NCBI GenBank assembly: GCA_902509905.1
Contig: CABWZI010000003.1
Span: forward strand, 1-64,000
Direction of reading: 5' to 3'
Source of the DNA: an uncultured Gammaproteobacteria bacterium
GTDB lineage: Bacteria; Pseudomonadota; Gammaproteobacteria; PS1; Pseudothioglobaceae
Length of the DNA stretch: 64,000 nucleotides
Position numbers and translations under genes: made by a program. The notes below the pieces were generated by a model. It was not told the origin of the DNA and ran no database searches. It saw nothing but the letters and a program-made list of their open reading frames with translations. Below are positions 46,259 to 49,895 of the stretch, piece after piece. Numbering within the stretch: position 1 is the first letter of the stretch; every line of letters begins with the position of its first letter.

Positions 46259-46780
46259 TTATTTTTCATGGCTTTTTTCCTTCAAAAATGGCACCATCGA
46301 AGACCATACTCCGTCATTTTTTAAGCGGTGAAAGATCGCAGCCAAAATATGCAAACCAATAAGCCAATAGATAACAGAGACTGAAAACTCATGAACTTCC
46401 ACCACTGTGTTAATTAAAAAGCCATCTTCAAATCCAAGCCAAAATAGCAAACCAATTAATAACCCAGTTAAAGGAATTAATGCAAGACAAGCATACATTC
46501 CGTAATGAACAACTCTAGCAGCTAAAAGTTGTGACTTTGGAGTAGAATCAGGAAGTGATGATTTTTGTGTTTTTTTCATGTAAATAAATCGAATCAAAAG
46601 CAATAACACAAAAACTGTGGCAAAAATTACTTCAAATTGAAGAAGTGCTTTGTCTTCTAATTGATTAAGTTCATCTATCTGCTTAAGTAAACCATAGATA
46701 AACAAAAGCACAAAACCCCAGTGCATGAACTTAGCTATAGAGCTAAAATTCGATTTGCTATCTAGATTTGTATTATTCAT
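46259..46780 (-). CDS. Cytochrome b561 family protein
   Basis: This 173-residue inner-membrane protein has four transmembrane helices and the spaced histidines of the cytochrome b561/CybB type (KFMHWGFVL, RVVHYGMYACL, VEVHEFSVS and IGLHILAAIFHRL). It therefore probably binds two haems and moves electrons across the membrane, with superoxide or quinone as possible partners. It lies next to the tRNA-Arg gene and upstream of mutT. Confidence 0.9.
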   Translation of the reverse strand: MNNTNLDSKSNFSSIAKFMHWGFVLLFIYGLLKQIDELNQLEDKALLQFEVIFATVFVLLLLIRFIYMKKTQKSSLPDSTPKSQLLAARVVHYGMYACLALIPLTGLLIGLLFWLGFEDGFLINTVVEVHEFSVSVIYWLIGLHILAAIFHRLKNDGVWSSMVPFLKEKSHEK

Positions 46781-46955: not shown

Positions 46956-47402
46956 TTAATGACAAGCTATGCCATACTTCTTTAAGCGCCAGTAGTTGTA
47001 TGGCAGAGGTGTAACAAATCCAGCCAATAGCATAAAAGGAATCACCCACCAAGTGAGCACTGCACCACCTGTAAGCAGAATATCTGTCAAATTCATTGCA
47101 AGTTCCATAGCAATCATTGAAATAAAACTCATGCCGATAGCTGTTTTAAACGCCAATCTAATTGCCATTTGTTTACTAAGAATTACGGTCTCTAATGCAA
47201 TACTTGTAATCAACCCGTTAACTATTGCGAGTGCCATTACTTGCCAAACTGACCAGCTATGCTCAATATTCTGAAAAGCAAAGATAGTTCCAAAATCACC
47301 AATTGAGCAGCCAAGCAGGCACCACAATGTATTTACTCTGCTTCGTTTCCAGGTATGCTTACAAAGCCAAAAACCATCATTAATTGCTGGAATGAATTGC
47401 AT
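46956..47402 (-). CDS. DUF4396 family membrane protein
   Basis: The 148-residue protein has about four transmembrane helices and matches DUF4396. Recognisable parts are WLCKHTWKRSRVNTLWCLLGCSIGDFGTI near the start, SIALETVIL, MSFISMIAMELAMN, and the ending PLPYNYWRLKK-G-CH. The conserved His, Cys and Met residues could bind metal, but the function is not established. It follows a cytochrome c lipoprotein gene by 8 bp, so the two are likely co-transcribed. Confidence 0.85.
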   Translation of the reverse strand: MQFIPAINDGFWLCKHTWKRSRVNTLWCLLGCSIGDFGTIFAFQNIEHSWSVWQVMALAIVNGLITSIALETVILSKQMAIRLAFKTAIGMSFISMIAMELAMNLTDILLTGGAVLTWWVIPFMLLAGFVTPLPYNYWRLKKYGIACH

Positions 47403-47410
47403 TTTGCCTC

Positions 47411-47839
47411 CTATTTGAATTTCTGATCATATCTTGTTTGAATTTCTTTTGGCCACAGATTATACATATAGTCAATTAAAGCCTGCTTTTCTTCTTTCGA
47501 CAACCTCTTTTCAAATGCAGGCATTTGTCCACCCATTTCAGTTCCACCCTTATTAATGGTATAAAGCAACTGTTCAGGCGAATGATGCCAAGTATGAGCA
47601 GTGCCATTAAGTGGTGGTGGAGGATAGTTACCATTTGCATCTTTAACCTTCCAGTCTTCAGCAAGGCCTTGGCCATTAGGGCCGTGACAACCTATACAGT
47701 TTTTTTCATAAACGCTCTCACCTAAGGAAGCCATAGAGTTTGAATTTTTATTTTTTTCTTCAGGACTACAACCTACCAATAAAATTAATGTGGATAAGAG
47801 TAATAGTTTATTCAATGACAGAAGTCTTGATTGAATCAC
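47411..47839 (-). CDS. Cytochrome c lipoprotein
   Basis: The 142-residue protein has a lipobox LVGC (lipidated Cys24), so it is anchored to a membrane facing the periplasm. A single haem site CIGCH lies at 48-52, with a probable axial Met in GGQMPAF near residue 107. The PPPPLNGTAHTWHHS segment is a feature of a subgroup of small periplasmic cytochromes. The start is a GTG overlapping the stop of the upstream gene. Partners are unknown; the neighbour is DUF4396. Confidence 0.9.
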   Translation of the reverse strand: MIQSRLLSLNKLLLLSTLILLVGCSPEEKNKNSNSMASLGESVYEKNCIGCHGPNGQGLAEDWKVKDANGNYPPPPLNGTAHTWHHSPEQLLYTINKGGTEMGGQMPAFEKRLSKEEKQALIDYMYNLWPKEIQTRYDQKFK

Positions 47840-48429
47840 TATGAGCTAGAGGGGCAAAGGTTTGGGTCCCAATATTCATCTTCGATATCCCCCATCGAAA
47901 ACAACAGTCCAACAATATCAGTAAATGAGAACTTTTCAATATCTCCAACAGCCATAATATATTGCCCTGTGTTAGACTCATTAAAGACTCTTATGAAGTA
48001 TGTTCCTGCATCATAAACTCGATTAGACAGGAAGTTTTCACCAATTTCTGGGCCGTTCCAATACCACTGCTTTCCATACTCTTCATACCAAGGAGTCCAC
48101 TCAAAGTTTTCACCATCAGCAAGACTTATTCTATGAAACTCAGAATCCAAGACTTCAAATGAAAACGTTTGCTCTAAAGCACATTCTCCAACTTTAGCAG
48201 CCAGGATTCCCGCATAGAAGTCAAAATCTATTTCAGATTGAATTCGATAGTAGTGAGGATCACCAGTCAGGGTTGAGTAAATTGCTTTTGAAATTTCAGG
48301 CTCCTCAATTTCATAAGGCGCATCTGCAGGATAGGTAGAATTTTCATTAAGAACCGGCTTATGTGCAAAGGTATGCGTAATAAAAATAGAACAAAATAGA
48401 AAAGTAATGATTCGTCTCATAAGTTTCAT
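47839..48429 (-). CDS. Secreted beta-rich protein of unknown function (PPC-like)
   Basis: From the ATG at 48429 the protein has a signal peptide, MKLMRRIITFLFCSIFITHTFA, with a TAGGT ribosome-binding site upstream; a longer frame to 48501 is less likely. The mature 170-odd residues are rich in aromatic and acidic residues. The GTYFIRVFNESNTGQYIMAVGDIE end resembles bacterial pre-peptidase C-terminal (PPC) beta-sandwich domains. Two Cys may form a disulfide. The stop touches the cytochrome c start, so both products are probably made together in the periplasm. No function is assigned. Confidence 0.75.
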   Translation of the reverse strand: MKLMRRIITFLFCSIFITHTFAHKPVLNENSTYPADAPYEIEEPEISKAIYSTLTGDPHYYRIQSEIDFDFYAGILAAKVGECALEQTFSFEVLDSEFHRISLADGENFEWTPWYEEYGKQWYWNGPEIGENFLSNRVYDAGTYFIRVFNESNTGQYIMAVGDIEKFSFTDIVGLLFSMGDIEDEYWDPNLCPSSS

Positions 48430-48497
48430 AATAGACCTAAATAATGCAGATATTCCATATTTTAATAAGAGTTCTATTTGGTAAAGTTTAAAAAAAC

Positions 48498-48689
48498 TCA
48501 TTCGTTTCCATCACTAACATGCGTGATTGAGATTTCGCCATCAAAAGCTTCGTAATCTAACTTATTTGGGTTGCAACAAATCTCGCAATCATAAATTTCG
48601 GTATTGTTCCCAGCAAAAGATGAATCAACTTCTAATGAAACCTCAAACTCTTCAAAGCAAAAGAAGCATGTAATAAATTTATAGTTCAT
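48498..48689 (-). CDS. CPXCG-motif cysteine-rich protein
   Basis: This 63-residue protein has two Cys pairs, CFFC and CEICCNP, which would make a small zinc ribbon. It matches the CPXCG-type cysteine-rich family found in marine gammaproteobacteria, although the first motif here is CFFC rather than CPxCG. The function is unknown. It overlaps the upstream end of the frame around the PPC-like gene and is on the same strand. Confidence 0.75.
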   Translation of the reverse strand: MNYKFITCFFCFEEFEVSLEVDSSFAGNNTEIYDCEICCNPNKLDYEAFDGEISITHVSDGNE

Positions 48690-49112: not shown

Positions 49113-49895
49113 TCAATCTAAAGTAAATCTAATCATTAACTCATTATCGAACAAAGCCTCATCTGGTGGCAAAGGAATGGGAGACGATCTAAAGACAGCT
49201 CTTCTAATCGAATTACCAAAGGGTTGAGCCACACTTTTGGGCATTACTTTATTTGAACTGTTACCTGAGCCACAGCCTAAAATCTTAACCGCTTCTACTG
49301 CACCATTGTTAGCCTGATTAATTAAAACATCACAAAACCAGGATTCATCAGCATCTTCATAACTCCAAAACGACTTAACTTTTTCTTGAACAGTATTGAT
49401 ATAATCTGATTTGAGCGCTTTTAATTCAGGAGTGATCTCTGCATTTTTTGTCTGAATTACACTCAGGCCACTCTCTTTTTCAAGGGCTTCATTTCTTTTT
49501 GTTAATGACTCAATCCGTTGGCTTTTCTCTTCTGAATCAAGCCTTGACATTTGGCAAATAAAGTTCAGCAGAACCTCGAAACCAGTATTGGGCTGGTAGT
49601 ACTCCCAAGCGCCATTAATTTCTCTCTCTACACCCTCTCCCTCACCCATTGGAAAGGAATATCGAATGCGTCTTTCAACTCTGAAGCCTTTCAAGTTGCA
49701 GTCACCTTGAGCATACGTTTTTTCACTCCCCTTTCCCCAAGAATCTATATACCACCAAAAAATATACCCATCCTTTTCAATGAGCGTATCGAAGTCGATA
49801 TATAGGGAGGCATTATTACCTGGAAGGACTTTGGTCCAATCGGCATAAGCGTTGAAAGATATCAATAAAGAAACGAATAGTAATATTTTTTTCAT
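49113..49895 (-). CDS. Secreted protein with adhesin-E-like domain and TolA-like C-terminal domain
   Basis: The 260-residue protein has a signal peptide (cleavage near A18). Residues about 19-116 resemble the surface-adhesin E-like fold (WTKVLPGNN...YIDFDTL...GYIFWWYIDSW and a paired Cys). A short coiled-coil region covers about 118-165. Residues about 165-258 match the TolA C-terminal domain: Y...VQEKVKSFW, a C188...C208 pair, IRRAVFRSSPIPLPPDEALF and a hydrophobic last strand. It has no membrane anchor, so it is not a normal TolA. The SNase gene is one base upstream. Confidence 0.78.
   Translation of the reverse strand: MKKILLFVSLLISFNAYADWTKVLPGNNASLYIDFDTLIEKDGYIFWWYIDSWGKGSEKTYAQGDCNLKGFRVERRIRYSFPMGEGEGVEREINGAWEYYQPNTGFEVLLNFICQMSRLDSEEKSQRIESLTKRNEALEKESGLSVIQTKNAEITPELKALKSDYINTVQEKVKSFWSYEDADESWFCDVLINQANNGAVEAVKILGCGSGNSSNKVMPKSVAQPFGNSIRRAVFRSSPIPLPPDEALFDNELMIRFTLD

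Follow-up and report, generated by a model that had tools for sequence, protein, structure and literature searches.

DUF4396 and its neighbours: a gene trio that looks like a copper-detoxification module

The gene trio described here looks like a copper-detoxification module centred on DUF4396, a little-studied membrane protein family which seems to replace the ATP-driven copper pump in many marine bacteria. We favour, at a probability of roughly 0.55, a copper-handling system with DUF4396 in the functional place of CopA; it would be an inner-membrane protein doing the job performed elsewhere by this Cu(I)-exporting P1B ATPase. The components of this reading differ in strength: a copper function is highly probable, an export-like role of DUF4396 falls a little short of even odds, and redox coupling is rather doubtful. 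The link to copper is evident in the gene context and CueR operator of relatives, in fusions, in invariant potential ligands and in the scarcity of P1B ATPases. An earlier note on this DNA had suggested a periplasmic redox or metal function, possibly involving copper; a copper-linked function is well supported, by the gene context, operators and fusions of relatives rather than by the window, as we term the whole 64,000-nucleotide stretch under analysis.

The window belongs to an assembly of 1.52 Mb in 46 contigs (89.57% complete). All four open reading frames (ORFs) claimed earlier at 46956-48689 are present, on the minus strand. The first (46956..47402) encodes the DUF4396 protein, a candidate Cu(I)-handling protein of 148 residues with four predicted membrane helices; PF14342 (2e-36; 125.9 bits against a Pfam gathering score of 27) is its sole Pfam match, and no E1-E2 ATPase domain was found in it. 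Eight base pairs separate it from a cytochrome c gene (47411..47839, minus strand; 142 residues, GTG start), whose product may be its redox partner and is placed by its tree as native to the family. This protein matches PF13442 (3.1e-15) and PF00034 (4.2e-12), with a profile score of 56.7 bits against a gathering score of 27, carries a CXXCH-type haem motif, CIGCH, at about 47684-47698 and, judged by eye, has a lipobox-like LVGC after its hydrophobic N-terminus. Its start codon has one base in common with the stop of the third gene (TAGTG), which encodes a secreted beta protein of about 193 residues (47839..48420, minus strand; longest ORF 47839-48501). Most homologues of the latter start at Met28 (about 48420); its overlap with the fourth gene is therefore probably an effect of taking the longest ORF, with about 77 bp between the two genes when counted from Met28. 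Thus, of the tight spacing reported previously, the 8-bp gap and the TAGTG overlap hold in the sequence, and the CPXCG overlap derives from the longest ORF only. The fourth gene (48498..48689, minus strand; PF14255, 2.1e-8), encoding a small cysteine-rich CPXCG protein, is adjacent and of doubtful membership: the ORF list holds no CPXCG-sized frame beside the equivalent cassettes of two relatives (G003 and G006), and it looks like a bystander. The PPC-like label of the secreted protein has weak fold support. Its best Foldseek matches are PPC/collagen-binding domains (5iku, E 6.7e-4; 5sv5, E 6.7e-3) from a model with a pLDDT of 62, a Pfam scan returned no match, and a conserved AHKP is placed after the signal peptide. 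Elsewhere in the window, a single ORF at 49113-49895 has Adhesin_E and TonB C-terminal matches, and a cytochrome b561-family gene (46259-46780) lies downstream of the cassette, past a tRNA-Arg.

The function of DUF4396 is best approached through its neighbours. A scan of named genomes retained 80 loci of the window-type subfamily from 578 relatives, 58 of them non-redundant at 90%, and core copper genes (CueR, CopC, CopD, multicopper oxidase, SCO1 and cupredoxin) were counted up to three genes from DUF4396. At least one was present at 25 of the 58 loci. Where a control was possible, the count was 23/54; random centres placed five or more genes away gave 3.3 on average and never more than 8. 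CueR was found at 14 of the 58 loci, cytochrome c at 10, multicopper oxidase at 7, CopC and CopD at 6 each, SCO1 (divergent) and cytochrome c' at 3 each and cupredoxin at 2, representatives of the copper neighbour genes being confirmed by Pfam. A Pfam tally of 150 of the 211 near genes was headed by MerR and cytochrome c (11 each); neither was among the 25 families listed, of 211, for 150 of the 478 far genes. In several Alphaproteobacteria DUF4396 is followed by CopC-CopD and multicopper oxidase. Against the favoured reading, a core copper gene is missing from this three-gene range at 33 of the 58 loci; many of these belong to the Bacteroidota, which hold the closest relatives of the window's DUF4396 copy.

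Fusions occur at three of 20 wider, more distant DUF4396 loci. Two (L262 and L263) are single-ORF fusions of DUF4396 to a multicopper oxidase, joined by a linker rich in His and Met plus an additional hydrophobic stretch, with a P1B ATPase and a CueR match both nearby; the third (L270) is a single-ORF cytochrome c-DUF4396 fusion in the gene order of the window. At a fourth locus, L276, a multicopper oxidase lies two genes from DUF4396. The other 16 of the 20 have neither a fusion nor a nearby multicopper oxidase, which again counts against the module; one of them, L273, has a MerR match some 2 kb distant. When 116 neighbours of the wider loci were tallied by Pfam, multicopper oxidase (two genes) was the sole copper family among the 25 listed of 172.

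Regulation provides a second line of evidence. At 24 of the 80 loci a CueR gene is divergent from and adjacent to DUF4396, and all 25 members of the CueR cluster contain C-X7-C. A cultured carrier with CueR next to DUF4396 is Amylibacter marinus. Upstream of the CueR-adjacent loci we noted the motif CTTTAC...TTCC...GGA...TTTATA, its dyad lying between -35-like and -10-like elements. An initial matrix built from five sites was poorly anchored and was replaced. In a first operator test, the upstream sequence outscored all 100 shuffles at 23 of 24 CueR-adjacent loci and at 14 of 53 others, three loci having too little upstream sequence. In a second, covering 250 bases at a threshold of 18 of 25 consensus positions, a CueR-type box was found upstream of DUF4396 at 38/80 loci and in 5/505 control upstreams, two of the latter belonging to CopC genes. 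The earlier note's proposal to look for metal-responsive operators is thus borne out in alphaproteobacterial relatives and fails in the window, where the cassette's best box reaches 16/25, shuffled upstreams of the loci having maxima of 15-19. The window's best matrix score, 11.9 compared with 20.5-40.3 at the sites behind the matrix, falls outside the cassette, and promoter-like sites of the sigma-70 type are no commoner around the cassette than in shuffles. A CueR search was positive in 13 of 58 genomes, one of which (G033) belongs to the window's family, and in none of 29 genomes of its genus. The lack of a CueR box in the window and of CueR in the genus speaks against the module.

The DUF4396 protein itself contains plausible ligands. 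Nine residues (C28, C32, M91, M96, M99, E100, M103, D107 and C147) are invariant across 63 subfamily rows, in which C14 and H148 are kept in 62 and H16 in 50; among 18 distant rows C28 is kept in 16, and C32 and M103 in 15 each. The model (pLDDT 86.9, pTM 0.80) has helices at 17-45, 52-76, 81-89, 91-111, 121-130 and 133-143, which we interpret as four membrane helices. The distribution of positive charge (close to the N-terminus, in loop two and at the C-terminus) suggests a cytoplasmic location of both ends, which would fit the extra hydrophobic stretch preceding the multicopper oxidase in the fusions. Foldseek gave no match at E <= 0.001 and no transporter fold, a further point against the module, and the best VIA match had a Z of 7.6, in a range counted as common. 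Ctr1 is not among the Foldseek and VIA matches listed, an absence that excludes nothing. A sequence search of solved structures yielded no credible relative of DUF4396 or of the PPC-like protein, and a plasmid search with the DUF4396 protein returned one record, from Streptomyces, at 26.8% identity.

These observations bear on the rival which survives best, namely that DUF4396 acts in the membrane as a chaperone for copper, or as an assembly factor, feeding a multicopper oxidase or cytochrome oxidase and transports nothing. The proximity of multicopper oxidase (7/58) and divergent SCO1 (3/58), as well as the multicopper oxidase fusions, would suit such a role; the available portion of PMC8456105 ties multicopper oxidase maturation to CopA and describes that of Rhodobacter capsulatus CutO as needing CutF, linked to CopZ-CopA. 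We nevertheless consider this somewhat unlikely, as a nearby multicopper oxidase is missing in the window and at many loci, the prediction of four helices with internal Cys and Met exceeds the needs of an anchored chaperone, and CueR control points to excess copper.

The placement of DUF4396 in the position of CopA relies largely on the distribution of P1B ATPases. With a CopA query at E <= 1e-40, a match was found in six of 79 distinct carrier genomes (3/35 and 3/45 in the two sets behind the 80 loci), at 29-34% identity, and none in the other 73. The same query proved sensitive, matching 21 of 23 genomes from a phylum search, most of which carry other DUF4396 branches; of the two with window-type DUF4396, G413 gave no P1B match and G372, whose protein is 64% identical, gave one, so that both occur together there, contrary to the module. 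Typing of the matches in all six carriers is uncertain: by NCBIfam score the match in G486 looks CopA-like and one of two in G567 ZntA-like, and scores of the remaining matches are close to the general cut-offs. Within the window's family (37 genomes), DUF4396 is present in 22, a P1B ATPase in 8, both in none and neither in 7; the probability of such non-overlap arising by chance is P = 1.7e-4, with no correction for descent. For the genus only (DUF4396 in 21/29, P1B in 2/29) it is P = 0.07, likewise uncorrected, which, together with the incompleteness of many genomes in these comparisons, weighs against the module. Six of the seven family genomes with neither are at most 75% complete, and the seventh, G031, is 99% complete. 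Since G031 and some SAR116 genomes possess neither, loss of P1B does not require DUF4396. In the SAR116 family of G460, P1B was found in 0/58 genomes and DUF4396 in 38/58, and this family therefore offers no contrast for exclusion. Carriers of 4.4-4.8 Mb with no P1B match (G471, G565 and G571) make genome streamlining less convincing as the sole cause of P1B loss; one or two matches are present in G486 (4.0 Mb) and G567 (4.2 Mb).

This exclusion is left unexplained if DUF4396 is instead a copper-induced membrane redox protein, relaying electrons among cytochrome c, multicopper oxidase and the quinone pool and carrying no copper. A relay would agree with the fusions and pairings of DUF4396 with proteins that themselves transfer electrons, namely cytochrome c and multicopper oxidase. 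We found no conserved haem or iron-sulphur motif in DUF4396, the conserved residues being Cys, Met, Trp and acidic, and such a function appears highly improbable.

As to the integrity of the cluster, the cytochrome c-DUF4396 pair recurs in relatives, and the four-gene system envisaged by the earlier note does not. Across 58 relatives (the window's genome, G000, included) we detected DUF4396 in 23, the cytochrome in 32, many weakly, and the PPC-like protein in 17, all within the window's genus. The neighbourhood check suggested earlier found the pair conserved, with the identical 8-bp gap in G003 and G006 and abutting in G001, G020 and G026. The PPC-like gene is no standing partner: among the 17 matching genomes it joins the pair only in G000, G003 and G006, with differing flanks. 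It mostly has a site of its own, and in the other genomes the 1.5 kb on either side (less at contig ends) showed no cytochrome c relative.

The usual site of DUF4396 in the genus is a slot between two genes which, from their sequences, we take to be hemW and argB. In G001, G020 and G026 the slot also houses the cytochrome c; in sister genera it contains cytochrome c with a P1B ATPase (G032), with multicopper oxidase pieces and a P1B ATPase (G029), with a multicopper oxidase (G031) or alone (G030). That a P1B ATPase or multicopper oxidase can occupy the site of DUF4396 beside cytochrome c in G029, G031 and G032 supports the module. In the window's genome the slot is empty (91 bp between both genes), and in G003 it holds a broken, apparently decaying DUF4396 (L076:7413-7839, two overlapping fragments) in addition to the intact cassette copy (L075:7216-7662). 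Across L078, L083, L089, L090, L091, L092 and L096 the interval varies from empty to cytochrome c, DUF4396, both, or multicopper oxidase and/or P1B ATPase, resembling a copper-gene hot spot. Outside the slot, a second DUF4396 of G001 overlaps the start of a multicopper oxidase ORF (L080:5873-7898).

In a tree of 91 DUF4396 sequences, the copies of the window, G003, G006 and G011 fall in a 20-row clade (97/98) otherwise composed of marine Bacteroidota, Marinimicrobia and one unclassified bacterium, and the slot copies of the genus lie on other branches. Within the cytochromes of the family, those of the cassettes form a group with the G002 sequence (83/97, not a starred fork). Few columns underlie either tree, and many of the forks are unsure; the simplest account is that the window's DUF4396 was acquired laterally and joined a native cytochrome, the native DUF4396 being lost or decaying. 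The cassette of G006 (L077, L086) lies near gene clusters c26, c35, c36 and c37, which also neighbour the lone cytochrome gene of G028, a common neighbourhood that hints at the place of assembly. The differing flanks of the cassette prompted us to consider a mobile element. DUF4396 is paired with cytochrome c in three settings (slot, cassette and Alphaproteobacteria), and the alphaproteobacterial paired cytochromes form a separate branch of their tree. That the cluster is a chance or weakly linked assemblage whose window copy has no copper role, as the missing operator, differing flanks and usually unlinked PPC-like gene might imply, is very unlikely given that the trio is kept intact in G000, G003 and G006 despite those flanks and that the DUF4396-cytochrome pairing recurs in other settings.

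Returning to the copper-handling module, we infer copper binding, transport, its direction and electron transfer along the following lines. Cu(I) would be picked up by DUF4396 at the cytoplasmic side by C14, C147 and H148, would move via C28/C32 and the third-helix Met residues, and would be handed to a periplasmic oxidant, cytochrome c in the window and multicopper oxidase in relatives. The cytochrome c, a putative lipoprotein, may contribute to redox reactions of the copper once exported, the simplest being oxidation of Cu(I) to Cu(II). In its fullest form, which we consider unlikely, DUF4396 would be an exit channel for Cu(I), independent of ATP and given its direction by periplasmic oxidation of Cu(I) to Cu(II) by the neighbouring or fused cytochrome c or multicopper oxidase, and would have taken over from CopA in SAR116, Thioglobus-like, some Pelagibacteraceae-labelled and marine Bacteroidota lineages. 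In the accessible part of PMC4771312, SAR11 is reported to have no copA, present in 98% of Roseobacter genomes, which raises the question of how marine bacteria lacking this pump dispose of Cu(I); DUF4396 offers a concrete candidate whose promoter, partners and residues can be tested. In the open literature searched we found no mention of its Pfam or InterPro accessions and met its name only in the accessible section of PMC7760498, where DUF4396 genes flank a metal-resistance cluster; other print may differ.

Among known systems, one close parallel is the CueR regulon of CopA and a CueO-type multicopper oxidase, copA and cueO being under CueR control in the available portion of PMC10141476, from which the term DUF is absent. 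Relatives of the window share a divergent C-X7-C CueR, a dyad operator and often a nearby multicopper oxidase; however, the CueR-controlled membrane gene is DUF4396 rather than a P1B ATPase, and the window has neither CueR nor operator. The resemblance to CopA is one of position, the P1B ATPase of G032 sitting in the same hemW-argB slot beside cytochrome c, and of proposed job, whereas DUF4396 has no ATPase domain, 148 as opposed to about 740 residues, and an unrelated sequence. The alphaproteobacterial loci in which CopC-CopD and multicopper oxidase follow DUF4396 recall Cop/Pco clusters, but none of these three genes accompanies the window cassette. Finally, Ctr1 has a Met-X3-Met pair in a membrane helix and a Cys-His C-terminus. 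DUF4396 resembles it, by analogy only, in the Met-X3-Met of M99/M103 in a helix and in its own Cys-His C-terminus, and differs from it in having four predicted helices.
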